In this document: positions 2,300-39,384 of the stretch, piece after piece | How the letters are laid out: every line of letters starts with the position of its first letter | Position numbering within the stretch: the stretch's first letter is position 1 | Origin: Candidatus Fermentibacteraceae bacterium | GTDB taxonomy: Bacteria; Fermentibacterota; Fermentibacteria; Fermentibacterales; JCC-6 | DNA: 64,000 bases | NCBI GenBank assembly: GCA_016744855.1 | Contig: JADGDO010000009.1 | Span: 3,871 to 67,870, forward strand | Reading direction: 5' to 3' | Program-made: the position numbers and the translations under genes | The notes under the pieces: generated by a model | Databases searched by the model: none | What the model was told of the DNA's origin: nothing | What the model saw: only the letters and a program-made list of their open reading frames with translations

Positions 2300-4650
2300 A
2301 TGATAGGGTGAGGATACTGAGGGAAGCCAGCCTCGCTGCAGTTCCTGAAATTTCTTCAGAACGGGCAGTCATATTGACTGAATTCTATTCCGGAATCGAC
2401 TTAGAGAATTTACCTATTCCCGTTCAGAGGGCAATGGCATTCAAATACCTTATGGGAAATCGATCTGTTTACATTGGAACCGGTGAATTGATTGTGGGCG
2501 AGAAAGGCCCTGTTCCCAAGGCTGTTCCAACTTACCCCGAGTTGTGTTGTCATACACTTGAGGATCTGAGGCTTCTTGATTCAAGAGAAAAAACTCCCTT
2601 CAGTGTATCAGAAGAAGTTATTGAAGTGTACCGGGACAAAATAATTCCTTTCTGGCAGGGAAAAACCATGAGGGATTTCATTTTTGATTCAATGGAAAAA
2701 CGCTGGTTGGATGCTTACGGAGCTGGTGTTTTTACCGAATTTATGGAGCAGCGTTCGCCCGGGCACACAGTTCTCGATGACAAAATCTATGGAAACGGTT
2801 TTATGAGCTTTATTTCCACAGCTGAAACTGGATTAGCTGGTGAAACAGATCCCAACAAACAGGCAGAACTCCGTGCAATGATAATTTCCATGAAAGCTCT
2901 TATCCGATTTGCAGAAAGACATGCAGAACAAGCTCAAGAGCTTTCTCTTACTGAAACTGATCCTGACCTGAAGAATGAACTTTTACAGATAGCAGAGATT
3001 TGCAGCAGAGTGCCCAGGCATGCTCCCTCAACATTCAGAGAAGCTTTGCAGTATTACTGGTTTGTTCATCTTGGGGTAACTACAGAGCTTAATCCCTGGG
3101 ATGCATTCTGCCCCGGTAAACTTGATCAGCATCTGTACCCATTTTACAGAAGAGAAATTGATTCAGGACAACTTACAAGAGAAGAAGCGGAGGAGCTGCT
3201 TCACTGCTTCTGGATAAAATTTAACAATCAACCCGCTCCGCCTAAAGTAGGGGTAACTGCTGCCGAAAGCAGTACATATACGGACTTTGCTCAGATTAAC
3301 CTGGGTGGTGTTAAACCCGACGGTACAGATGGTGTTAATGAACTCACATACCTGCTTCTGGATGTGATACAGGATATGCGCCTGCTTCAGCCCAGCTCAT
3401 CTGTTCAGGTAAGCAGAGAAAATCCCGATGAATACATTCTGCGAGCTGCTGAAATTATTAAAACTGGTTTTGGCCAACCCTCGGTGTTCAACACCGAGAT
3501 GATAATTAAGGAATTGCTTAGGCAGGGAAAAACACTTGCTGATGCGAGATGCGGTGGTACCAGTGGATGTGTTGAAACCGGCGCTTTCGGCAAGGAAAAT
3601 TACTGCCTTACCGGGTATTTCAACCTTACGAAAATACTTGAACTTACACTCGATAACGGATACGATTTCAGAACTGATAAACAACTTGGTCCTGTGAGCG
3701 GTAAGGCTGAGGACCTTGAAACTTTCAAAGGGCTATTCGAAGCGTTCAGAGAGCAGCTAGAATATTTTACAGACCTGAAGATAGAGGGCAATAGAAGAAT
3801 TGAGCGGTTGTACGCAGAGAAACTGCCCGTGCCATTTCTTTCCGTGTTGATAGATGACTGCATAGAGAAAGGTATTGATTACCACTCAGGTGGAGCACGA
3901 TACGATACCAGTTACATACAGGGAGTAGGGCTGGGTACTGTCACCGATTCCCTTTCTTCGATTAAGACCCATGTGTTTGATAAGAGTGCTCTTTCAATGA
4001 AAGAGCTGTCAATCATCCTTCACCGTAATTTCGATAATCCGGAGGATGAAAGAATCAGACAGTTGTTTATGAACAGAACACCTGCCTACGGAAATGATGA
4101 TGACTCGGCAGACTCGATAATGGTTGATGTTTTCAATTCATTCTTTAACGCGGTTGATGGTATAAAGAACACAAGAGGAGGGGAGTACCGTATAAACATG
4201 CTTCCCACTACCTGTCATGTGTATTTCGGCTCCGTTATCGGTGCCACGGCCGACGGAAGGTTCGCCGGGAAACCATTGTCGGAGGGAATTAGCCCTGTTC
4301 AGGGTAGAGACAGAAAAGGGCCTACAGCTGTTTTACTCTCTGCTGCAAAGATGGACCACTCCCTTACCGGGGGTACCCTGCTGAATCAGAGATTTACTCC
4401 TCAGATTCTTGCCGATAAGTCTGGACTGAAGAAACTGGTACATCTTATCAGAGGGTACTTCAGGCTTGGCGGACATCACATTCAGTTCAATGTTGTCGAT
4501 TCAGAAACTCTAAGAGAAGCACAGAAATTCCCTGAAAATCATAGAGACCTTATTGTAAGGGTCGCGGGTTACAGTGATTACTTCTGTGATTTAAGCCCCG
4601 ACCTTCAGGAGGAGATTATCTCCCGAACTGCTCACGCTAGCATGTTGTAA
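2296..4650 (+). CDS. hypD: Glycyl radical enzyme, probably trans-4-hydroxy-L-proline dehydratase (HypD-like)
   Basis: 784 residues, a full-length glycyl radical enzyme of the pyruvate formate-lyase superfamily. The catalytic Cys425 lies in GGTSGCVETGAFGKENY with the general base Glu427 (the CVE motif of the dehydratase/decarboxylase branch). The radical site is Gly758 in RVAGYSDYF. The wording around Cys425 and the C-terminus (VRVAGYSDYFCDLSPDLQ) look to me most like HypD, which dehydrates trans-4-hydroxyproline to pyrroline-5-carboxylate; other CVE enzymes (propanediol dehydratase, choline lyase, isethionate lyase) fit less well. No proC reductase, microcompartment gene or transporter is adjacent, so the substrate is not confirmed by context. 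Overlaps the activase by four bases, the usual arrangement. Confidence 0.85.
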   Translation: MNDRVRILREASLAAVPEISSERAVILTEFYSGIDLENLPIPVQRAMAFKYLMGNRSVYIGTGELIVGEKGPVPKAVPTYPELCCHTLEDLRLLDSREKTPFSVSEEVIEVYRDKIIPFWQGKTMRDFIFDSMEKRWLDAYGAGVFTEFMEQRSPGHTVLDDKIYGNGFMSFISTAETGLAGETDPNKQAELRAMIISMKALIRFAERHAEQAQELSLTETDPDLKNELLQIAEICSRVPRHAPSTFREALQYYWFVHLGVTTELNPWDAFCPGKLDQHLYPFYRREIDSGQLTREEAEELLHCFWIKFNNQPAPPKVGVTAAESSTYTDFAQINLGGVKPDGTDGVNELTYLLLDVIQDMRLLQPSSSVQVSRENPDEYILRAAEIIKTGFGQPSVFNTEMIIKELLRQGKTLADARCGGTSGCVETGAFGKENYCLTGYFNLTKILELTLDNGYDFRTDKQLGPVSGKAEDLETFKGLFEAFREQLEYFTDLKIEGNRRIERLYAEKLPVPFLSVLIDDCIEKGIDYHSGGARYDTSYIQGVGLGTVTDSLSSIKTHVFDKSALSMKELSIILHRNFDNPEDERIRQLFMNRTPAYGNDDDSADSIMVDVFNSFFNAVDGIKNTRGGEYRINMLPTTCHVYFGSVIGATADGRFAGKPLSEGISPVQGRDRKGPTAVLLSAAKMDHSLTGGTLLNQRFTPQILADKSGLKKLVHLIRGYFRLGGHHIQFNVVDSETLREAQKFPENHRDLIVRVAGYSDYFCDLSPDLQEEIISRTAHASML

Positions 4651-4666
4651 AGAAAAAGGTGAAACT

Positions 4667-5365
4667 GTGAAAACTGTTCAGTTCAGGTACGGTAAAGACA
4701 ATCTAGGGTATCTTATTCACGGTCAAGAATATGCCATGGCTGTTGATGGTGGGGCAGTTGGTGAGATCATTCATTATCTGAGAGACAATAGTCTGAAACT
4801 TGAGTTTGTTACCAACACCCATTCTCATGGGGACCACACCTGTGGTAACAGGGAACTGCTGGGAATCACCGGAGCTGAATTTCTTGATGTCGGAACTCTG
4901 CCTGAACTTGGAAGCATAGGGCTGGAAGGCTCTGAGATTAAAGTAATTCCCACACCCGGGCACACATCAGATTCTCTCTGCTTCCTTTTTGATGATGTTC
5001 TTCTTTCAGGAGATACGCTGTTTATGGGCAAAGTGGGAAGGTGCTTCACAGGGGATATTCACAGCTTCTATCTTTCAATAAAGAAGATACTGGCCCTTTC
5101 TGACGAGACTGTGGTATATGCCGGGCACGACTATGTTCTCGAGTATCTTAAAACGGCGAAGGAGCTGCAGCCTGCGAATTCATTCATTTCAGAATACCTT
5201 ATGGAATATAATCCTGACCTGGTAAAATCCACTTTGGGAGCGGAAAAAAAGATTGATCCCTTCATTAGCTTTAATGAACCGGAGATTATAGAGTTACTGA
5301 TAAGCAGGAAGCTTCCTGTCGACACCGAATTTGATAGGTTCAGTTCCATTATGTCGCTTATCTAG
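4667..5365 (+). CDS. Metallo-beta-lactamase-fold hydrolase (glyoxalase II-like)
   Basis: 232 residues starting at GTG 4667 behind an AAGGTG ribosome site. His52-x-His54-x-Asp56-His57 (THSHGDHTCG) is the dinuclear metal motif. The later metal ligands are seen in PTPGHTSDSL, LSGDTLF and YAGHDY. This is the layout of small glyoxalase II-like thioesterases, although the substrate cannot be read from the sequence. It lies 16 bases downstream of the glycyl radical enzyme and just before an HD hydrolase, so it is probably co-transcribed with them. It may process a product or a toxic by-product of that pathway, which is an inference from position only. Confidence 0.85.
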   Translation: MKTVQFRYGKDNLGYLIHGQEYAMAVDGGAVGEIIHYLRDNSLKLEFVTNTHSHGDHTCGNRELLGITGAEFLDVGTLPELGSIGLEGSEIKVIPTPGHTSDSLCFLFDDVLLSGDTLFMGKVGRCFTGDIHSFYLSIKKILALSDETVVYAGHDYVLEYLKTAKELQPANSFISEYLMEYNPDLVKSTLGAEKKIDPFISFNEPEIIELLISRKLPVDTEFDRFSSIMSLI

Positions 5366-13460: not shown

Positions 13461-13809
13461 ACTGCTGAGAAGTGTAAGTCAGGATCAGATCAAAACTGAT
13501 CTTCCTGATTTCCGGACGGGTGATACCGTTCGTGTTCACTATCAGGTGATTGAGGGCGACAAGGTCAGAGTACAGATTTTTGAAGGTACTGTGATTGCCC
13601 GCAGAGGCGGCGGAATTGATGAAACTTTTATGGTGAGAAAGATTTCCGGTGGAGTTGGAGTGGAACGAGTTTTCCCTCTTAATTCACCTCGAATCGCCAA
13701 GATTGAAGTTTCCAGACACGGTAAAGTACGTAGAAGCAAGCTCTTCTACCTCAGAAAGAAAACCGGCCGTGCCGCAAGAATCAAGGAACGCAGAGTTTAT
13801 AAGAAGTAA
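13453..13809 (+). CDS. rplS: 50S ribosomal protein L19
   Basis: 118 residues, full length. [52 protein letters not shown] and [17 protein letters not shown] are typical of L19. It is at the 30S-50S interface. It overlaps the end of trmD and is followed one base after its stop by the rnhB-yraN fusion. Confidence 0.97.
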
Positions 13810-13810
13810 A

Positions 13811-14770
13811 GTGTCAAATCTTTACCTTTTCGACGAGCGTTACAGGTCCGAGTATGGCGTTATAGCCGGCTTGGATGAAGCAGGAAGAGGACCTTTAGCG
13901 GGTCCTCTTGTTGCTTGTGCTGTTATTTTACAGGGTTCTTTCAGAAATGAAATTCTTAATGACAGCAAGAAGCTGACTGATAAAACCAGAAGAATGCTGA
14001 AACCTCTTATTGAGGAATCCGCTGTCCGCATCTCTCTGGGAGTCGTTTCATCTTCCGAAATAGATAAAAACAGAATGGCATGGGCCGTTAGAACATCATT
14101 CAAACGGGCAATGAAGCCGCTTATAAAACAATCTGATGTCTTTCTTATCGATGGTAACAGCGTTTCCGGTCTTGAAGCCCCATCAAGGTTCATTGTGAAG
14201 GGTGACTCAAAGAGTCTTTCAATAGCTGCTGCAAGTGTTATCGCCAAAGTTACCAGAGATGACATCATGCTTGAAGCTCACAAGGAATACCCTGAATATG
14301 GGTTCAGCAGTCATAAAGGGTACGGTACTGCAGCACACCTTAAAGCTCTTAAAGCTATTGGGCCGAGCCCGATACACAGAATGTCTTTTGCACCTCTGTG
14401 TAACATCTATCAGACTGGGCAGATGTCACTTTTCCCGCTTGATATACCGAATCCGGGAAAGGCTGCTGAGATGCTCGCAGCCCGTTACTACGAAAAGCTC
14501 GGCTTTACTGTTATCGAGAGAAACTGGCGATCGCCTGAAGGAGAGATTGACCTCATTATCCGAAAGAACAATTCGGTTATTTTTATTGAGGTAAAATCGA
14601 CGCTAACGGGCCATTCCAGAGAAGCTCTGGAAAAAATAAACAAGGCAAAAATAGCCAGAATCAGAAATGCAGCTGAAGCATGGATTGCCACCACTTCATA
14701 CGGTGGCACATGCCTACTTGAAGGGGCATTGGTGGAAGCCGGAAGCGTCCAAAGAATACCCGTAAACTAA
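13811..14770 (+). CDS. rnhB: RNase HII fused to a YraN/UPF0102 endonuclease-like domain
   Basis: 319 residues from GTG 13811, one base after the rplS stop. Residues ~1-205 are RNase HII: the catalytic Asp22-Glu23 in GLDEAGRGPLAGPLV, DSKKLTDKTR, KGDSKSLSIAAASVIAKVTRD and GFSSHKGYGTAAH. It removes RNA from RNA/DNA hybrids and misincorporated ribonucleotides. Residues ~220-319 are a YraN (UPF0102) domain with a PD-(D/E)XK nuclease core: GEID with Asp247 and FIEVKS with Glu260 and Lys262. In most bacteria these are neighbouring separate genes; here one frame runs through with no internal stop or obvious ribosome site. The N-terminal assignment is certain, the fusion very likely. Confidence 0.93.
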   Translation: MSNLYLFDERYRSEYGVIAGLDEAGRGPLAGPLVACAVILQGSFRNEILNDSKKLTDKTRRMLKPLIEESAVRISLGVVSSSEIDKNRMAWAVRTSFKRAMKPLIKQSDVFLIDGNSVSGLEAPSRFIVKGDSKSLSIAAASVIAKVTRDDIMLEAHKEYPEYGFSSHKGYGTAAHLKALKAIGPSPIHRMSFAPLCNIYQTGQMSLFPLDIPNPGKAAEMLAARYYEKLGFTVIERNWRSPEGEIDLIIRKNNSVIFIEVKSTLTGHSREALEKINKAKIARIRNAAEAWIATTSYGGTCLLEGALVEAGSVQRIPVN

Positions 14771-14865: not shown

Positions 14866-15858
14866 ATGAAATTGACAGTTTTTGCTTTAATCATTATTGC
14901 AGTTGCGGGTTTCGCAGCGGACAGAGTGGTTTCCTGGGAGTATGCAACTCAGACGGGTTGAGGATCTTGTATCAGCAGCTGGTCAGCTGTTAAAAATGCT
15001 ATTAATCCCTTTGTTACTTCAAATGAAGTTGCTCCTTTTTATCACTTCTACAATGGGCCCGGATCCAATTCTTTCTCGAGTGCGAGAATTGGTATTTTTG
15101 GTCTGGGATACACTCCATGCGTATCTATTGACGGTTACTCAGCCAGCAGTTCTGCTTCCAGCTATGCCGGTTCGATTAACGCAAGACTCGCCGTTCCGTC
15201 CTACGTTTCTATTGATGTAAACTGTGTTGGTGATGCCACCGGCGGAACTGCTTATTTCAGTATTACTGCCGAACAGGATCTTGATACCGGAGTAAAGCTT
15301 TATTCTGCAATTCTTGAAGACCATGAGATCGCCACCAGTTCATGGGGAGGATACAGCGGTAAGGAAATGATGTGGATTCCTGTAGTTGCTCCAACAGCAG
15401 TATCTGGAACTGTTTTGAATTTCACAGGCCCATATCCTCAGACTATTGAACTCCAGGGTAATTACACACTTAACCCAACAGCACACCCCTACGCCAACCT
15501 CAACGTGGCTGCCATTGTTCAGGGTTATCAGAGTAATTCCGAAAAGGAAGTTTTCAACGCTTACTTTGCCCCGCTTGCTACAACTGGAATCGAAGAAGAC
15601 GAATCAGCCATGGTAAATAGCACAGCTCTTTTGGGTGCATATCCCAACCCCTCAACTGGTGCATTTTCCATCTCAAGTATGATTCCTGAAGGAACAACTG
15701 GTACAATCGATGTTTTCGATGTTACCGGACGTACCATTGAGCAGTTCAATGCAGGCTCTCTTGAAAATATGTACATCGAAGAAGCCGGTGTTTACTTTGT
15801 CAGGCTTACAACAAGCACAGGTGAAACTCTCAGAAGTCAAGTTGCTGTAATTAGATAG
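14866..15858 (+). CDS. Exported thioredoxin-like selenoprotein, copy 1 (UGA = Sec at codon 32)
   Basis: 330 residues if the TGA at 14959-14961 is read as selenocysteine. The start ATG 14866 has AAAGGAA upstream. A signal peptide (LTVFALIIIAVAGFA) is followed by WEYATQTG-Sec-GSC, an exported thioredoxin-fold redox motif in which Sec32 replaces the first Cys of CxxC and Cys35 is kept; YTPCVSIDG (~82-90) is the cis-Pro loop. The region resembles Omp28-type thiol proteins (TGTWCGxC). Residues ~255-330 form a FlgD-like sorting-type domain (YPNPSTGAFSIS...VFDVTGRTIEQF...GVYFVRLTT). A SECIS-like hairpin follows the TGA, and the paralogue at 16001 has the same TGA and hairpin. Likely function: reductive or isomerase chemistry outside the inner membrane. 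A conventional annotation would see only a truncated C-terminal piece. Confidence 0.85.
14974..14991 (+). promoter_or_regulatory. SECIS-like hairpin of copy 1
   Basis: AGCAGCT (14974-14980), loop GGTC (14981-14984), AGCTGTT (14985-14991): seven base pairs including one G-U. The loop starts 19 bases after the TGA. In Escherichia coli fdhF the GGUC of the SECIS apical loop starts 18 bases after the UGA, so distance and loop agree with a SelB-binding element. GGAT directly after the TGA could also pair with ATCC at 15005-15008 as a lower helix. Confidence 0.8.
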
Positions 15859-15885
15859 CGCAACTTTTCTGATCAGATAGTATCG

Positions 15886-15919
15886 AAGGGGAGAGTCTAA
15901 ATGACTCTCCCCTTTATTT
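15886..15919 (+). terminator. Intrinsic terminator after copy 1
   Basis: AGGGGAGAGTC (15887-15897), loop TAAAT, GACTCTCCCCT (15903-15913): eleven perfect base pairs followed by TTATTTTT. It separates the two selenoprotein genes into two transcripts. Confidence 0.9.
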
Positions 15920-15940
15920 TTACACATGCATAGTATGGTA

Positions 15941-15969
15941 TTGTTCTCTTGCTATTTGAATACTATATT
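15941..15969 (+). promoter_or_regulatory. Promoter of the second selenoprotein gene
   Basis: -35 TTGTTC (15941-15946), 17-base spacer, -10 TATATT (15964-15969), followed by the same TCATGAAACC as copy 1. Position relative to the start codon is almost identical to copy 1, which supports both being real. Confidence 0.7.
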
Positions 15970-16000
15970 TCATGAAACCAACAAGGGAAGGGATATTGCT

Positions 16001-16990
16001 ATGAAATTGACCGTTTTTGCTATGCTTGTTCTCGCAGTTGCTGGATTTGCAGCTGACCGAGTAGTTACCTGGGAATACTATACACAGACTGGTTGAGGAT
16101 CCTGTATTAGTGGCTGGTCAGCCGCTAAAGCAGCTATCAATCCTATCGTTGCAGACGGAAATGTTGCACCCATCTACATGTTTCACAATGGTCCTGCAGG
16201 AATTGCATACAACTGGGCCAGACAGAGTCTTTATGGTATAACAGGAACTCCCACAGTTAAAATTGATGGTCTTACAGCCAGTTCCAGCGCTTCAGCTTAT
16301 GCCGCTGCAATCAACACAAGGCTTGCTGTACCCTCAATAATTGATATTGACGTCAACATGGTCGGAAACGAAACAGGCGGTACCGCTTACGTTTCTGTTA
16401 CTGCTGAAGAAGCTCCTCCAGCAGGTACAATAAAAGTTTCTACAGTAATTCTTGAGGACCACGAGACCGCTTCATCAGCATGGGGTGGCTACAATGGTAT
16501 GGAAATGATGTGGATTCCTATAACAGCTCCACTCGGTAACAGCGGAACTGTACTCAACTTCACAGGACCTTACCCACAGACTATCGAAGTTTCGGGTGCA
16601 TACACACTTACACCTGCTCAGCATCCCTATGACAACCTGAATGTTGCTACTTATGTTCAGCTTACAGGAACCAAGGAAATGCTTAACGCAAGCTTTATTG
16701 ATCTTCATGACACAACCAGTATCAATGATGCCGGTTGGGCACCAGTAGTATCAAGTTCTGTACTTAACGCATGGCCTAATCCATCAACAGGTGCATTCTC
16801 CGTTTCAAGTTTTGTACCTCAGGGAACAACAGGTACTGTTGAGATCTTTGATGTTTCCGGACGTTCTGTAGAGCAGTTCGGTGCAGGATCTCTTGAGACT
16901 GTATTCATCGAAGAAACCGGTGTTTACTTCATCCGCCTCACAACAAGTAACGGTGAAGTTTCAAGAAGACAGGTAGCTGTAATAAAGTAA
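16001..16990 (+). CDS. Exported thioredoxin-like selenoprotein, copy 2 (UGA = Sec at codon 32)
   Basis: 329 residues if the TGA at 16094-16096 is selenocysteine. The signal peptide (LTVFAMLVLAVAGFA) and WEYYTQTG-Sec-GSC match copy 1 position by position, and the cis-Pro loop is the more classical GTPTVKIDG. The sequences have diverged considerably outside the motif (for example FHNGPAGIAYNWARQS instead of FYNGPGSNSFSSARIG) yet both frames stay open on both sides of the TGA, so neither is a decaying pseudogene. The C-terminus repeats the sorting-type domain (WPNPSTGAFSVS, IFDVSGRSVEQF, GVYFIRLTT). Own promoter, own SECIS-like hairpin and own terminator. Likely an extracytoplasmic thiol/selenol oxidoreductase; the substrate is unknown. 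Confidence 0.85.
16109..16126 (+). promoter_or_regulatory. SECIS-like hairpin of copy 2
   Basis: AGTGGCT (16109-16115), loop GGTC (16116-16119), AGCCGCT (16120-16126): seven base pairs with one G-U. The loop again starts 19 bases after the TGA. Compared with copy 1 the fourth pair changed from A-U to G-C on both sides, and pairs two and three changed while keeping G-U or Watson-Crick pairing, so pairing and not only the amino acids is conserved. Confidence 0.8.
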
Positions 16991-25789: not shown

Positions 25790-28700
25790 ATGTTTTTTCC
25801 TGCCCTCGTTTTGATTGCTGCTCTCCTTGCTCAGTCGGTTTCACTGGATGTTCATGATGATCTTGTGTATCCAGTCGGTGATGTGTCGGTCGATTTTGTT
25901 GATCAGATACATTGTGAAGTAAGTGCATCCGGCTTTTCGAATGATGGTACTGTTCTTCTACCGGTGAAAACCGTAATGATTCCAATTCCTCCCGGTGAGT
26001 CTTTCTCTGTTAATGTTGTTCCGTCAGGGGTTAGGTCCCTTGGAGCAGTTCCAGCGATTGCAGCTGTCGAGCTTGATGAACACGGGATCGAAAGAATAAT
26101 AGCTGCAGACCTTTCGCAGCTCCCGTGTGGCTGGGGAGGGGTTGTCAGCAGTGGCACCTTCAGACGTGCTGGTTATGTTGCCGTTCAGCTCCGTCCGGTT
26201 GCCTTCGATGGTGGAGAGCTGTTAGCTGCATCAACTCTTCGAATAGAGCTTGTTTGTGACCAGTCCAACCGCCCTGAAACTGTGCGGGGGCACGAGGGTG
26301 AAATATTCCAGTCTCTGTTCGGCACGGATGAAGTTTGGCGAACACCACTTTCCCCAAGGCAAGAAAGCCCTTTCTGGGGCAGCCCCTGGGCGAAGATTCA
26401 GGTAGACACAGCAGGTGTATTTGCAGTTACAGGCGATCTGATTCCTGAAGCTGTCGGTATGCCTTCAGCAAGTTTTTCCATGATGACCGGTCGTGGTAGA
26501 ATGATGAGTGAAGACAATCCAGTTGAGGATGCATTCATCCCAAGGGATGTTCCGATCCTTGTTGATGACGGTGGTGATGGCACTTTCGATTCTTCTGACA
26601 GGATAATTTTCTACGGTAGAGGGCTTTCCTGGTGGGGAGAATTCCAGTCTGATCATTTTAACAGCCGTTACGACAGCTTGAATGTTTACTGGTTAACCTG
26701 GGGCGGTTCGGGTGGTCCTTTTATGGAAGTGCTTGACGGCTCTCTTACCGGAGCCCCTTCGGCCGGGTCCAGCTATGTAAACAGATTGCATTTCGAAGAG
26801 AATCAAACCCTCTCCCACGATATCAATGTTCTTGGAGACATGTATGCATGGAATCGAATCCCCGCTTCCAGCACTACCACTGCCTACTACAGTTTAGCAT
26901 CTCCCGGAACCACAGGCGATGGAACCATAAGAATAAATTTGAGTATTCAACCACCTTACCCCCCTAGCTCATTCAATCTTCTTTTTACAGCATCACTAAA
27001 CGGCTCTATTATGGCTGATACGGTCAAAAAAACCTCTGGCCCCATGCTATGGGAATTCCCTGTAACTGGCCTTGAAAACATCAACTCATTTGCGCTCAAG
27101 ATTGAGAATACGTTACCCTTAAGAGGATGTGTTACTGTTTACACCGACTGGTTTGAAGTTTTCCCAGAGACCGGTTTCAGAAGCTGGGCCACTCAGTGTC
27201 AGGTGCCTCTTGATCATTCCTATCTGGCAGGAGAGAGAAGAGCTGTTTCCTGGGCACAGAACTTAAGCAGTGAGTCTTTTGTCTGCATGGCACTCAGTGA
27301 CACGGCAGTTGTTGCTATTGCTCTGCCGGGTGGAAAAGATTTTGAGATTGCTATGCCTGATGGCTGGCGTGAACCTGTTATGTGGGTTGTTCCCGGTGGG
27401 GCTTTCAAGGAGCCCGTAAGTGTAACTTCGAGCAGCCCCGGAAGGATTATTGAAACCCTCTCTTCGGGGAACACCGTTTATGTTTATCCCGATGAATACG
27501 CTGCTGATATGCCTCTTTTCTCTCGCGGGCGTTCTGACATTCAATTTGTAAGTTTGAGTGAACTGTATGATGAATTCAATGGCGGAGTACGCGACACCGG
27601 TGCAGTTAGAGCTTTCTTCAGTTACACCTTAAACAATTGGAATGCTGCTCCTTCGCAGTTGGTGCTTGTCGGTACGGGTAACTACGATCCCAGAGGTTTC
27701 ACCACTGAACGACCTTCCCCAATGGATATCATTGTGTATGATTTTTACTATGCTCTGCCTATTTGCAGTGATTTTATCTATTCTATAACAGAGAATGGAA
27801 CATATCCACAGGCAGCGGTCAGCAGAATCGCAGTTGACGACAGAGCAGAATTACAGCTCGTAGCCCAGCGATCCATGGAATACAGTGACCCCTCAGAGGA
27901 AAGCGGAACATGGCAGTCTGTTATTCTCGGTGCTGCAGATGATGAAAGATCACCCAAATACCCGGAGCACGATCAAGAAGAGCACACAGAGGACACAGAG
28001 CATATTATGGCAAGCGTCATTCCCGACAGGTTTACACCCATGAGACACTATCTGATAAACTATAACTGGAACAGTAACTGGAAGAAGCCTGCAGCAAGAG
28101 TTGCGTATATAGAAGCTTGGAGCAAAGGAGCTCTTGTTTCATTCTACCTAGGGCATGGAGGTTTTGACCAGATAGCTGATGAAGGCCTTCTTTTTGTTGA
28201 GGATGTTGATCTTCTAGCCTGCGGCTCAAGGCTTCCATACTCATTCTTCGGTTCCTGTGATGTTGGAGTATTCCAGAGTCCTTCACACTCATGTTTAGGT
28301 CAGAAGGTAACTGTTACCTCCGGAGGTGGGGCTATAGTGTCGAGTGCGGCGAGTTGCTCAAGCACTGCAGGTGGTAACTCTTCTTATCTCACTAGAATTC
28401 TCAACTATCTTCTTTCAGAGAGGAAGTTTTCAATAGGAGAGTGTCAGTGGCTCGGTCTTCTTGAAGGGACTTTCAACGCCAATGACAAAAAGTACATCAT
28501 ATTCGGAGACGGTTCTCTTTACCTTGCACTGCCTGATTCGGGGTTTTCGATTACTGCGCCTGAAATGTATACCTCAGAACTCTGTGAAGTCGGTGGAACC
28601 CTTAACAGAGACGGTCTTGTAATGCTTACAGCCTGGGAGTCCGCTGTTCCGGATTCATATTACACTCACAACAGCAACATACTAATCGAGTATCTCTCGA

Positions 28701-29503
28701 CACCCGGAGTCTTCTATAGGGGCCTTTCGGAGGCATCTCCCGATTTTGATGCAGAGATGTTTGTACCCTCTTTTGCTACAACTGGAGAGCGTGGACGGGT
28801 TAGGTATTTCTCTCCAGGAACCGGAGGAGGCAGCCTTGCATGTTCATATCCGAGCCTGATTGAACCAGGCATCACTTCCGGAGATGATGCCGGTCCTGAT
28901 ATGGAGCTCTGGCTCACCGGTTTCCGTGGTATTGAACACCCTTCAGTTTCAGGTAATGTTGTTTTTGAAGCGGCACTTGAAGACAGTTCGGGCATAAATC
29001 TGCTTCCTTATCCCGGAGCTCAACTTGCTTTGTATATAGATGATACGCCTGTTGATGTTGCCGATTACTTTACCTATGAACTCGGTTCTGCGACGTCAGG
29101 CCGGATAGATTATCCTCTGCCGGAACTTCAGCCCGGTGATCACACTCTTAGATTGCGTGCTTCAGACAATGTAACCAACATCAGCTGGGAAGAAATGACA
29201 TTCCATCTGACCGGTGATGCTTCACCTGATATAGATCAATTCTTTGTCTATCCAACACCCGCTTCAACAGTACTTTCCTTCAACTGGAATCAGAGTATGG
29301 ACGGACCTGTCAGCCTCAATATCTACTCTGTATCCGGCCACCGGGTAGCTTCGTTCGGGAACCTCACGGGAAGAACCGGGTACAATCAACATAACTGGAA
29401 TCTGCTGGATGAAGATGGCGACATGGTTGCATCAGGTACTTACATCTATGTAGTATCTTCGGGCGATTCAGAGGAGACCGGTCTGGCAACTATATTACGA
29501 TGA
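25790..29503 (+). CDS. porU: PorU-like gingipain-family (C25) protease of a type IX-like secretion system
   Basis: 1237 residues, signal peptide at the start (FPALVLIAALLAQSVS). The N-terminal ~500 residues are beta-rich. The C25 catalytic core lies around 640-900: QLVLVGTGNYDP, His789 in LGHGGFD and Cys823 in FGSCDVGVFQ, 34 residues apart as in gingipains. The ~85-residue C-terminus (YPTPASTVLSFNW...LNIYSVSGHRVASF...GTYIYVVSS) is FlgD-like. PorU is the sortase that removes the C-terminal signal of T9SS cargo and attaches it to the surface; the length and domain order fit it better than a secreted gingipain. First of a run of coupled outer-membrane genes. Whether it acts as a sortase or a free protease is unproven. 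Confidence 0.8.
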   Translation: MFFPALVLIAALLAQSVSLDVHDDLVYPVGDVSVDFVDQIHCEVSASGFSNDGTVLLPVKTVMIPIPPGESFSVNVVPSGVRSLGAVPAIAAVELDEHGIERIIAADLSQLPCGWGGVVSSGTFRRAGYVAVQLRPVAFDGGELLAASTLRIELVCDQSNRPETVRGHEGEIFQSLFGTDEVWRTPLSPRQESPFWGSPWAKIQVDTAGVFAVTGDLIPEAVGMPSASFSMMTGRGRMMSEDNPVEDAFIPRDVPILVDDGGDGTFDSSDRIIFYGRGLSWWGEFQSDHFNSRYDSLNVYWLTWGGSGGPFMEVLDGSLTGAPSAGSSYVNRLHFEENQTLSHDINVLGDMYAWNRIPASSTTTAYYSLASPGTTGDGTIRINLSIQPPYPPSSFNLLFTASLNGSIMADTVKKTSGPMLWEFPVTGLENINSFALKIENTLPLRGCVTVYTDWFEVFPETGFRSWATQCQVPLDHSYLAGERRAVSWAQNLSSESFVCMALSDTAVVAIALPGGKDFEIAMPDGWREPVMWVVPGGAFKEPVSVTSSSPGRIIETLSSGNTVYVYPDEYAADMPLFSRGRSDIQFVSLSELYDEFNGGVRDTGAVRAFFSYTLNNWNAAPSQLVLVGTGNYDPRGFTTERPSPMDIIVYDFYYALPICSDFIYSITENGTYPQAAVSRIAVDDRAELQLVAQRSMEYSDPSEESGTWQSVILGAADDERSPKYPEHDQEEHTEDTEHIMASVIPDRFTPMRHYLINYNWNSNWKKPAARVAYIEAWSKGALVSFYLGHGGFDQIADEGLLFVEDVDLLACGSRLPYSFFGSCDVGVFQSPSHSCLGQKVTVTSGGGAIVSSAASCSSTAGGNSSYLTRILNYLLSERKFSIGECQWLGLLEGTFNANDKKYIIFGDGSLYLALPDSGFSITAPEMYTSELCEVGGTLNRDGLVMLTAWESAVPDSYYTHNSNILIEYLSTPGVFYRGLSEASPDFDAEMFVPSFATTGERGRVRYFSPGTGGGSLACSYPSLIEPGITSGDDAGPDMELWLTGFRGIEHPSVSGNVVFEAALEDSSGINLLPYPGAQLALYIDDTPVDVADYFTYELGSATSGRIDYPLPELQPGDHTLRLRASDNVTNISWEEMTFHLTGDASPDIDQFFVYPTPASTVLSFNWNQSMDGPVSLNIYSVSGHRVASFGNLTGRTGYNQHNWNLLDEDGDMVASGTYIYVVSSGDSEETGLATILR

Positions 29504-35613: not shown

Positions 35614-36274
35614 CACTCTATTTCTAGCATATGATTTTCCTGATATTGTTCTCTGCGATCTTGAAATAGATGTTTCCGGTACGATTTGGCTTCTGCCGGA
35701 ATCAGAATCTGTTGTAATAAGATTGGAACAAAATGGTCAGCAAAGCCGGTTTGACACCGGCTTTGTTGGTATTCCAGCCGGATTGGCTCTCTCTCCAACC
35801 GGCAAATGGATAGTTTCATATCAGAATCCCGGTGTTATACGCGTTTTTGATCAGAACGATATTCTTTCAGAAGAAATATTTTTGCCTAGTCCAGGTGACA
35901 TTCTCTTTTCCGGTTTAGCTTTGTGGGCAATAGATACAATCAAGAACAATGTGATTACTTCAAACAGCGAAATTGTCGCTATGAATTGCTGTAACAGTCG
36001 CTCCAGAATTTGTTTGGAAAGAACAGGCAGTGGTATTTCAAGCGGTCCTTACGGAGTCTTCCTGCTGGAATCAGGAGAAACAAGAGTACAGATTGCCGAC
36101 TCTGGTTCAGCCTGCTTCTCAGAGGATGGGATTTTAATTCTCAGAGATGGGAACCTTGTGATCCATGGTGGCGACACTCTTCTAACAGATTTGCCCTATA
36201 GCAGGATCTCTGCATCACCAGACGGAGAAACTGTTGTTCTCTGGGGAAATTCTCATCCTATGGTTCTTGAATGA
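35594..36274 (+). CDS. Predicted exported beta-propeller-like protein
   Basis: 226 residues. The start is uncertain: GTG 35594 gives a hydrophobic leader (VLLWFVSTLFLAYDFPD) and overlaps the upstream gene by 20 bases; ribosome binding is weak, as in coupled genes. The rest has repeated strands such as GTIWLLPESESVVIRLEQNG and GIPAGLALSPTGKWIVSY, like NHL or WD-type propellers. It ends with the overlap ATGA to the next gene. Function unknown; location and operon suggest a periplasmic accessory protein of the outer-membrane machinery. Confidence 0.6.
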   Translation: MLLWFVSTLFLAYDFPDIVLCDLEIDVSGTIWLLPESESVVIRLEQNGQQSRFDTGFVGIPAGLALSPTGKWIVSYQNPGVIRVFDQNDILSEEIFLPSPGDILFSGLALWAIDTIKNNVITSNSEIVAMNCCNSRSRICLERTGSGISSGPYGVFLLESGETRVQIADSGSACFSEDGILILRDGNLVIHGGDTLLTDLPYSRISASPDGETVVLWGNSHPMVLE

Positions 36275-39200
36275 TATCTATTTCATTGCTACTCACTCTT
36301 ATCGGTTTTACATTTACTGTAGTCGGAACCGGAAACGAATACCTTCCAATCCCTGCTTCCCCCTGGCTTGCTCCGGAATCAATTGTTGCAACATCCGGTG
36401 GAGATACTCTTTCAGCTGTTCCTGCTTCACGTGGCCCTTCAGTAGGCCTTCTCCTGAATCCTATACTGGGGGAGGGCGATACTGTTTTTATTACGGCTGA
36501 TACACTGGATATCTCATTTCCCTCGGTGTCCGGGCTTGATCTCCAGCCATTGGAAAGAGGGCAGATTCTTCCCTTGCAATCTTTTTACGCAGGGCATGAT
36601 CCGGTGCCTGAAGGGCTCTATATATCCGGATCCAAACGGTTGGGAGTTTCAGTTGGGTCCGGTGGTGGTATTTCACAAGGGACAGAGCTTTCTATTCAGG
36701 GAATTCTTGCACAGGGCATAACAATTAACGGCAAAATTACCGACAGGGATCTTCCCCTGGGAACTTCTTCTTCAGAAGCTCTTTCAGATCTTGATAAAGT
36801 TTACATTGGCCTCGATGGTGGTTCTTGGGACGCTGAAATGGGTGACCTGGACTGGGAAAGCAGAGGGGCAGTTCCATGGCGAAGTGAGGTTACAGGTTTC
36901 AACGCAGGGGTCAGACCAGGAGAATACTTAGACCTCAGCGGAGGATACGGCACTACAGGCAGTGAGCGTCAGAAAATAGTGTTATTGACGGAAGAGGGCC
37001 TTCAGGGACCCTATACTTTCGCTACCGGAGGAGGAGTAACTCCCGGCAGCGAACAGGTTTTTCTCGACGGCAGCAGACTGCAGCGCGGTGCAGGTGCGGA
37101 TTATGAAATAGATTATGCAGGAGGGCTTATCACCTTTACAACACAACGACTAATTCGACGAGATCAGAGGGTTGATGTCTCCTGGTATCGCGAGGGGGAC
37201 GGGTTCAGAAAAGACCTTACGAGGCTTGAAACCATACTCGATCCATTTGAAGGATTTTCGGTTGGCTTTTCCGGTTTTTCAAGGGGAGACAATGTCGATG
37301 TACCACTCGGTTTTGTAATGACCGATGAAGTGCAGGAAGCACTGGAAAATGCAGGAGAAAATCTCTCGGATGCATGGGTTGACGGTGGGACTTTTGTTGG
37401 AGAAAACAACGGTAGTTATACACTGGACAGTCTTTCGCACTACTCGTGGACCGGTCTTCTGCAGGGGGATTGGAGCGTTGAATTTTCTAGACCACCGGAA
37501 GGTCAGGGAGATTACATATATGATTCTGCAACGGGAGGCTATTCCTGGGTCGGTGTAGGGCAGGGAACACATTTTGCTCGGAAATATATATCCATTCCCA
37601 GTTCTATAGATCTCCTCGGAGCAACAATAACAGGAGACACCAGTGCTGGTGATTATCTTTTGTATACAAATTTTTCCAGAAAGAGGGGAAACTTGTTCAA
37701 TACAGATGCAACTACTAGCGAGGGTTCTCTTTCCGGTGGTAACTTTACTGTGCTTCCCTGGGAGTCGGGACCTGAGATTAATCTCAGTGGAAGATTTGTC
37801 TCTGATGCCTTCAATACTCCCGATGATATGGATACCGATGCCGATTTGACCAGCTGGGGACTTCCAGCCGGCTGGAAGGGGAGGGATAGTTTTATTCTCG
37901 GTGATCTTGGAGGCGAGTCACTTAGATTCACCGCTGGTGAGAGGTTTCTCGAAGGGGGGGGAACTAGTACAATTTCCAACCTAGAATTTACCCCTTTTGA
38001 TGGAGCACTCAGAGCGTCATTTGCCTTAAAAGGATTGTCCAGAACGGGTACATCCCTTCTCTCGGGAGGAAGACGTGGACTTATCAGCTCTGATGCAACA
38101 ATTCAGATGAATGCATTTACTCCATTTCTGAAAGCATCTTACTTGGGAGAAAGCTGGGTTGACAGCTTATCGGGTGGTCTCCTTGTTTCTGATATGGGAG
38201 TTCTTCTGGAAACAGGCAGTTGGACATCTACTGTATCAGCTGGTGGAGAAATTGATCGTAGAAATGGGATAAATCATCCTGACCGAACTCTACGATTGGG
38301 TCTTGTAACCAGGGCTGCAGGAGTGTCTTGGAATTCAAATGCCAGTATACAGCATTCTACCGGGTGGTTTGAAGGCGGAGGGGCAACCAGTTCAGACGCC
38401 GTCAAAGCCGGTTATTCAGGCAGAACCGGGAATGTCTGGATTTACAGCCAGTATACAGCGGGAGGTTATTTTTCGAAACTCATGGATATTGTTTATACCT
38501 GGGTTGGTGGTGGTAACGGTGATTACAGTTACGACCCCGAGACTGGAGAGTATTATCCTGATCCATCCGGAGATTACAGGCAGGTATACATACCTGGCCA
38601 AGGGGAAACAAGAGTTCTGGAAGCTTCTTTTGATGGAGGGTTTGCATGGTCAGACTCTTCGAACTCTGCTGGAATAGATGGAACAATTAAGTTATCCGCT
38701 TCCGACCCTGAAGACAGGTTGAGGACATACACCCTTGCAGGTGCCTTTGATGTAGCATCCCCTGGGGGATGGGAGGCGAGCCTTGCCCCATACCTTTCAT
38801 GGGAAGAGAGTCTTCTCACCCGATTCACAGTTAGGGCTTCTGGGTTTGACAGAATTGATGAATACAGTGGTGTTGGCAATACAAGGGAGACTTTCAGAAA
38901 ACTTGAGGTTACACCGATTCTTCAGCCGGAGGATTGGTTTGAGGTTGAAATATCAGCAATGGCAGCTTTTCGCAGAAGGGCACTTTACGGCCGCAGAGAG
39001 GTAGATGAAGTTGGAGGCAGCCTAACTCCCACATTCGTTACAGAATTCGGCCTGAGCACCGGCATAAAGGTCTCCGGGGAGAATCGAAAAGAGAGGGAAG
39101 GAGATCTCGAAGCATTTAACTGGGGATTTGAGCCCAGGATATCCATTAATGGCGGAGGGTGGGTTGCTTCAGGCAGCTTCACCAGTTGGTATATGCCCGG

Positions 39201-39384
39201 TGAGGAAATCGTACCCTCATGGTTTTTTGACGGTAGACAGACAGGTTGGACACTGGAACCGAGGTTATCCCTGGGAAGAAACATCAACAGATGGTTCCAT
39301 GTTTCCCTTTTCTATTGGGGCAGGAAGCCAGCAGACAGTGAATGGACACAACGGGGTGGGCTTGAAAGCACGGTGAATTTCTAA
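36271..39384 (+). CDS. Large predicted outer-membrane beta-barrel protein (possible translocon-like)
   Basis: 1037 residues with a signal peptide (SISLLLTLIGFTFTVVG). Residues ~240-310 contain VFLDGSRLQRGAGADYEIDY followed by AGGLITFTTQRLIRRDQRVDV, a plug-like beta module that I recognise from large outer-membrane proteins of FCB and candidate phyla, including SprA-like ones. Two copies of a GDYxYDxxTGxY motif occur (GQGDYIYDSATGGYSWVG and GNGDYSYDPETGEYYPDP). The rest is strand-rich and ends in Phe (ESTVNF), consistent with a barrel. It is less than half the length of SprA. With PorU/PorV and Omp85 genes around it, it could be the pore of the export route, but this is inference. Confidence 0.65.
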   Translation: MISISLLLTLIGFTFTVVGTGNEYLPIPASPWLAPESIVATSGGDTLSAVPASRGPSVGLLLNPILGEGDTVFITADTLDISFPSVSGLDLQPLERGQILPLQSFYAGHDPVPEGLYISGSKRLGVSVGSGGGISQGTELSIQGILAQGITINGKITDRDLPLGTSSSEALSDLDKVYIGLDGGSWDAEMGDLDWESRGAVPWRSEVTGFNAGVRPGEYLDLSGGYGTTGSERQKIVLLTEEGLQGPYTFATGGGVTPGSEQVFLDGSRLQRGAGADYEIDYAGGLITFTTQRLIRRDQRVDVSWYREGDGFRKDLTRLETILDPFEGFSVGFSGFSRGDNVDVPLGFVMTDEVQEALENAGENLSDAWVDGGTFVGENNGSYTLDSLSHYSWTGLLQGDWSVEFSRPPEGQGDYIYDSATGGYSWVGVGQGTHFARKYISIPSSIDLLGATITGDTSAGDYLLYTNFSRKRGNLFNTDATTSEGSLSGGNFTVLPWESGPEINLSGRFVSDAFNTPDDMDTDADLTSWGLPAGWKGRDSFILGDLGGESLRFTAGERFLEGGGTSTISNLEFTPFDGALRASFALKGLSRTGTSLLSGGRRGLISSDATIQMNAFTPFLKASYLGESWVDSLSGGLLVSDMGVLLETGSWTSTVSAGGEIDRRNGINHPDRTLRLGLVTRAAGVSWNSNASIQHSTGWFEGGGATSSDAVKAGYSGRTGNVWIYSQYTAGGYFSKLMDIVYTWVGGGNGDYSYDPETGEYYPDPSGDYRQVYIPGQGETRVLEASFDGGFAWSDSSNSAGIDGTIKLSASDPEDRLRTYTLAGAFDVASPGGWEASLAPYLSWEESLLTRFTVRASGFDRIDEYSGVGNTRETFRKLEVTPILQPEDWFEVEISAMAAFRRRALYGRREVDEVGGSLTPTFVTEFGLSTGIKVSGENRKEREGDLEAFNWGFEPRISINGGGWVASGSFTSWYMPGEEIVPSWFFDGRQTGWTLEPRLSLGRNINRWFHVSLFYWGRKPADSEWTQRGGLESTVNF

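Follow-up and report, generated by a model that had tools for sequence, protein, structure and literature searches.

Tandem genes for predicted exported, thioredoxin-like selenoproteins with T9SS-type C-terminal domains in a Candidatus Fermentibacterota genome

Two tandem genes in a stretch of 64,000 nucleotides (the window) from the metagenome-assembled genome of an uncultured anaerobic bacterium, a Candidatus Fermentibacterota, carry an in-frame TGA at codon 32, the first position of a U-x-x-C redox motif. Taking their sequence, their homologues and the genes of the host together, it is very likely that they encode exported, thioredoxin-like selenoproteins, which probably act at the cell surface. 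Within this reading the insertion of selenocysteine (Sec) at codon 32, as judged from the sequence, is nearly certain. The coordinates of the genes and of their in-frame TGA codons in the window are the following:

14866 to 15858, + strand: selenoprotein gene 1, 330 amino acids with Sec32 (translation with TGA read as U)
14959 to 14961, + strand: in-frame TGA, Sec32 of gene 1, forming U-x-x-C with Cys35 (translation; homologue column)
16001 to 16990, + strand: selenoprotein gene 2, 329 amino acids with Sec32 (translation with TGA read as U)
16094 to 16096, + strand: in-frame TGA, Sec32 of gene 2 (translation; homologue column)

Gene 1 consists of 330 codons followed by TAG and gene 2 of 329 codons followed by TAA, and in each of them the TGA at codon 32 is the only one in frame. 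The two products share 63% identity, and their sites read WEYATQTG-U-GSC and WEYYTQTG-U-GSC, with the second Cys three residues after U. A preliminary description of this DNA had reported two paralogues with a TGA at codon 32, a UxxC motif and intact frames on either side, and both the coordinates and the translations agree with it; the second Cys, which it had noted as kept, turned out to be invariant in 87 copies from the phylum. Of the two, gene 2 is the one whose close orthologues occur elsewhere in the genus. Both strands of the window together contain 2674 TGA triplets; seven of these are preceded by an open frame of 25 codons or more, counted from a start, and followed by one of 100 codons or more. 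A SECIS-like hairpin of -7 kcal/mol or lower followed the TGA in two of these seven, genes 1 and 2, and no strong SECIS was found in the scan of the five other read-through candidates with open frames. The frame that follows the TGA showed pN values of 0.15-0.28 against pS values of 0.62-0.74, which indicates a purifying selection comparable to that on the part preceding it.

A profile search of 42 genomes of the phylum found members of the family in 37 of them. Six are present in the window genome; the site codon is TGA in four of these six and TGC in the other two, and up to four Sec paralogues occur in one genome. The preliminary description had proposed homologues as a check on codon 32. 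In 87 non-identical phylum copies the site codon was TGA (51), TGC (23) or TGT (13) and nothing else, so that all 87 have either Cys or TGA. Both redox columns, the Sec/Cys site and the second Cys, were invariant in the 74 members that were aligned. The Sec copies from the phylum fell into two groups in the tree. One Cys copy (L091) likely represents a Sec-to-Cys exchange, as it branches within the Sec copies and has no hairpin. Apparent tandem copies in another genome (G027:C12:32200-35600, L097) are broken over several frames, reflecting either a low-quality assembly or decay.

The hairpin that follows the TGA is a bacterial SECIS element. In the window it occupies these positions:

14974 to 14991, + strand: SECIS hairpin of gene 1, 7-bp stem AGCAGCU/AGCUGUU, loop GGUC, 19 nt from TGA to loop (folding, covariation)
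16107 to 16128, + strand: SECIS hairpin of gene 2, 9-bp stem UUAGUGGCU/AGCCGCUAA, loop GGUC (folding)

In the published bSECIS model (PMC13188914 Fig 2) the apical loop has 3-9 nt with a G within its first two positions, the stem has 4-16 bp, the spacing is 16-37 nt and the energy does not exceed -7.5 kcal/mol. We counted a hairpin as present when it followed the loop, stem and spacing rules of this model and its energy reached -5 kcal/mol. Counted in this way, 49 of 51 TGA copies versus none of 35 Cys copies had a hairpin whose apical loop contains G and lies about 19 nt downstream of the site codon; the mean energies were -7.4 and +0.3 kcal/mol, respectively. Synonymous recodings that preserved the protein gave a mean hairpin energy of -1.9, and the lowest mean among 200 sets was -3.0. 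Under the strict limit of -7.5 kcal/mol the hairpin core passes in 41% of the TGA copies and fails in about 59%; the core of gene 2 passes and that of gene 1 (-7.0) does not. The gene 2 hairpin has an energy of -11.2 kcal/mol, which none of 200 synonymous recodings equalled, and its 42-nt MFE is -17.2 (z -2.6). The 42-nt fold of gene 1 (-8.1) showed no excess over shuffles. Compensatory changes were observed at four of the seven hairpin pairs, 96% of the cells pair, and neither any of 500 shuffles nor any slid structure reached the covariation score. RNAalifold independently recovered the same seven pairs. The hairpin shares nucleotides with conserved codons (WSAV), so that its conservation is in part that of the protein. 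Several copies have alternative loops (CGGU, CGGG, AGGU) and different stems at the same place.

The genome that contains the window (3.24 Mb, 94.85% complete), whose nearest named relatives are Candidatus Sabulitectum and other Candidatus Fermentibacteria, possesses all of the Sec genes that the preliminary description had listed for a search, selA, selB, selC and selD. A selA gene (437 bits) is directly followed by selB (316.6 bits, cut-off 242), and the tRNA-Sec gene, selC, with a TCA anticodon scored 68.1 bits (cut-off 47), with ARAGORN in agreement. There are two selD genes (G000:C85:30587-31507 and G000:C10:33589-34512; L038, L039). In both, the redox site (CAGUAGK) contains an in-frame TGA, and SelD itself is therefore a predicted selenoprotein, twice over. 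In seven genomes of the phylum, four of them with TGA copies, selB was undetected; all seven are at most 86% complete, so that a loss of selB is not demonstrated. In one genome of the phylum (G031, contig C253) a Sec paralogue lies beside selD, selA and selB, a linkage by position only:

347 to 1069: family copy (L171)
about 1395 to 2645: selD
3055 to 4143: selA
4206 to 5282: selB

Also by position only, a Sec copy and a selA fragment share a 5.3-kb contig in a second genome (G034:C99, L172), and a broken family copy precedes selA in a third (G032:C186, L173).

A search of 385 genomes found relatives of the family in many families beyond the phylum. Among 45 outside copies read at their loci, the site codon is TGA in 21 and, after correction of the alignment, in a 22nd, L135. 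The classification of L135 as a Cys copy was rejected: the alignment had shifted, and by eye the sequence around position 703 reads CGUAAC, that is, UxxC. This protein has an extra Cys two residues before Sec, and its motif may therefore be CxUxxC. The outside genomes with a TGA copy number 12 and come from ten families, and selB was above the cut-off in all 12. Four other genomes (G192, G318, G331 and G044) are without selB, and there is no TGA in their listed copies.

The domain order of the proteins is signal peptide, thioredoxin-like domain, beta domain and T9SS sorting domain. The features beyond the redox site that were located in the window pair are these:

14866 to 14919, + strand: predicted signal peptide of gene 1, MKLTVFALIIIAVAGFAA (by eye; helix 2-15 in the model of the paralogue)
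15640 to 15831, + strand: T9SS type A sorting domain of gene 1 (TIGR04183, residues 259-321; PF18962, residues 259-322)
16772 to 16969, + strand: T9SS type A sorting domain of gene 2 (TIGR04183, residues 258-323, 38.4 bits)

The signal peptide claimed in the preliminary description is plausible by eye, and the resemblance to Omp28-type proteins that it had noticed was borne out by profile matches in the family and by a fold match to the Omp28 domain 2r2c (TMt 0.72, rmsd 2.6 against the gene 2 model). In this model, which has a mean pLDDT of 90.1, Sec32 lies between strand 1 (22-28) and helix 1 (33-51), at the position where thioredoxins carry their first Cys. Pro84, in a TPTV motif, is nearly invariant in the 74-member alignment and, from the model, we infer that it occupies the cis-Pro place. 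The thioredoxin domain would thus carry its U-x-x-C active site where helix 1 begins, together with a cis-Pro loop. The best PDB match of the gene 2 model was HBP35 (5y1a, E 4e-15), and the T9SS sorting domain 8glk was also among the fold matches. Matches to transglutaminase, fibronectin and similar folds were set aside, as they arise from beta domains.

The C-terminal sorting domain that had been suggested from the sequence holds for both proteins, whose tails exceed the curated cut-offs of both PF18962 and TIGR04183; for gene 1 the TIGR04183 score was 36.8 bits (cut-off 23, E 2.9e-9). Such a tail is present in 73 of the 74 family members. The window genome also encodes SprA (416.7 bits, cut-off 200) and PorU-like proteins that scored 405.9 and 293.6 bits on NF033707 T9SS_sortase, below the cut-off of 420. 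One of the PorU-like genes is in the same window as the selenoprotein pair, in a non-adjacent position:

25790 to 29503, + strand: PorU-like C25-peptidase, a candidate processor of T9SS cargo (PF01364, E 3e-47; NF033707, 293.6 bits)

Further PorU-like paralogues were seen elsewhere in the genome, two in contig C30 and one in C40. At 36271-39384 of the window there is a 1037-amino-acid protein with no Pfam match at E 1e-5 and a weak SprA-like stretch (27.8 bits).

We propose that UGA at codon 32 is read as Sec by means of the SelA, SelB, SelD and tRNA-Sec of the host and of the adjacent SECIS hairpin. The product, with its signal peptide followed by an HBP35/Omp28-like thioredoxin domain and a beta domain and with a T9SS sorting domain at its C-terminus, would leave the cytoplasm through the general secretory pathway, its Sec-Cys redox pair would form outside the cytoplasm, and the protein would cross the outer membrane through the T9SS, acting as a cell-surface thiol/disulfide-type oxidoreductase in the manner of HBP35 with its two Cys. 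That the proteins are exported redox proteins is, from their predicted domains, highly probable, and a role as thiol or selenol oxidoreductases outside the cell is likely by homology. A location at the surface by way of the T9SS is probable. As the place where these proteins might otherwise act, the periplasm or the outer membrane, as in an Omp28-like protein, is rather unlikely; the C-terminal domain would then be structural and no working T9SS signal. This would agree with the PorU-like scores under the curated cut-off, with the lipoprotein nature of the Omp28 family (NF033782) and with the T9SS having been described in Bacteroidota (PMC10202324). However, the tails score above both domain cut-offs in the window pair and are nearly universal in the family, SprA scores about twice its cut-off, other proteins with such tails are encoded in the window genome, and no lipobox was seen by eye in the window pair.

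Three other readings of the TGA itself were considered. Since a single base separates TGA from TGC and from TGT, and since the genomes were assembled from metagenomes, the TGA might be a nonsense mutation or an assembly or sequencing error in a Cys gene, the genes being then pseudogenes or artefacts. We give this practically no probability: the TGA is found in 51 distinct phylum copies from many assemblies and in about 20 outside the phylum, the frame is conserved after it, and the hairpin is tied to the TGA state. Sequencing error in particular, which the preliminary description had named as a possible refutation, is excluded because the 51 distinct TGA copies share the conserved SECIS-like hairpin. 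That a frame stays open when TGA is translated as U does not alone tell which residue is inserted, and UGA could be read as another amino acid through a change of code or a suppressor tRNA giving Trp or Cys. This is extremely unlikely, as TGA terminates ordinary genes of this host such as selB, in agreement with the earlier view that a general code change does not apply; moreover, only the redox Cys column alternates with TGA, and the genome has complete Sec machinery and SECIS hairpins. Sec insertion is generally selenium-dependent, and the codon might therefore serve as a regulated stop in a selenium sensor whose full protein is made only when selenium is plentiful; the Sec paralogue bordering selD-selA-selB in G031 would fit such a role. 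Yet the conserved active-site UxxC and the Cys homologues point to catalysis, and the 31-residue signal peptide fragment left by termination has no apparent use, which makes a sensor very unlikely.

The preliminary description had named no described family of this composition. A described relative does exist in GOS_C (NF045500), although the window pair is too divergent to match it. GOS_C was found in 2008 (74 sequences, Trx-like fold; PMC2398784), and a selenoprotein inventory of 2026 with 119 families and subfamilies (PMC13188914) gives it in its Table 1 as 'Hypothetical protein GOS_C', NF045500, UxxC; the present NCBIfam name is Omp28-related selenoprotein. Both groups have a Trx-like fold, UxxC with Sec first, Sec and Cys forms, and a SECIS downstream. 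NF045500 gave weak matches to 46 of the 74 phylum family members at E 0.01 (best E 4e-11) and, at E values up to 1 with a best of 4e-22, to 15 of the 20 Sec forms from outside the phylum, whereas the window pair did not match it even at E 10. The relatives whose scores were seen reach 16-62 bits, far below the 200-bit cut-off, and the T9SS tail of the present family falls outside the matched part. At E 1e-25 no NF045500 match was found in the 385 genomes; the control genomes gave none either, and its absence from the 385 is therefore not established.

HBP35 (hemin-binding protein 35, 5y1a) of Porphyromonas gingivalis resembles the window proteins in its exported Trx domain, beta domain and T9SS C-terminal domain, with a full-length sequence-profile match (E 1.9e-5) besides the fold match given above. 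It has a cell-surface form, and its thioredoxin (insulin-reduction) activity, which requires its two Cys, has been shown along with hemin binding (PMC2907840); PMC3120885 describes its dependence on the Por secretion system. It differs in having two active-site Cys (PMC2907840) and no Sec, and the identity is about 15%. The Omp28 profile PF11551 matched 43 of the 74 members (best E 6e-12), but its gathering score is 34.9 bits, gene 2 reached 22.2 bits and gene 1 had no match. Unlike the Omp28 lipoproteins of NF033782, the window pair has Sec at the first redox position and is non-lipoprotein by eye.

Sec in an Omp28-type protein is not new, because NF045500/GOS_C is on record and 46 of the 74 members match it. 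Our literature search found no account of Omp28 with selenocysteine, of T9SS-linked selenoproteins or of Fermentibacter selenoproteins. What is new, as far as the searched literature shows, is the divergent, T9SS-tailed, multi-copy subfamily across one phylum and its spread. We regard it as reasonably likely that these represent lineage-wide, T9SS-displayed surface selenoproteins, in which Fermentibacterota and several other phyla spend selenium on extracellular redox and which models have missed. If so, Sec enzymes can cross both membranes to the cell surface and would depend there on electrons supplied from outside, and a whole group of genes is cut short at the Sec codon by ordinary annotation. 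The window subfamily goes unrecognised by the NCBIfam model of the Omp28-related selenoprotein, and ten further bacterial families, all outside the phylum, have Sec forms of Omp28-like proteins.

The window pair is flanked by an rnhB-yraN fusion upstream and an epimerase gene downstream. The same order is found, with a single copy of the gene between the two, in Candidatus Sabulitectum RS_8_35 (L035). The fusion, at 13649-14770 of the window, joins RNase HII to a UPF0102/YraN domain in one frame and is repeated in L035 (3877-4965).
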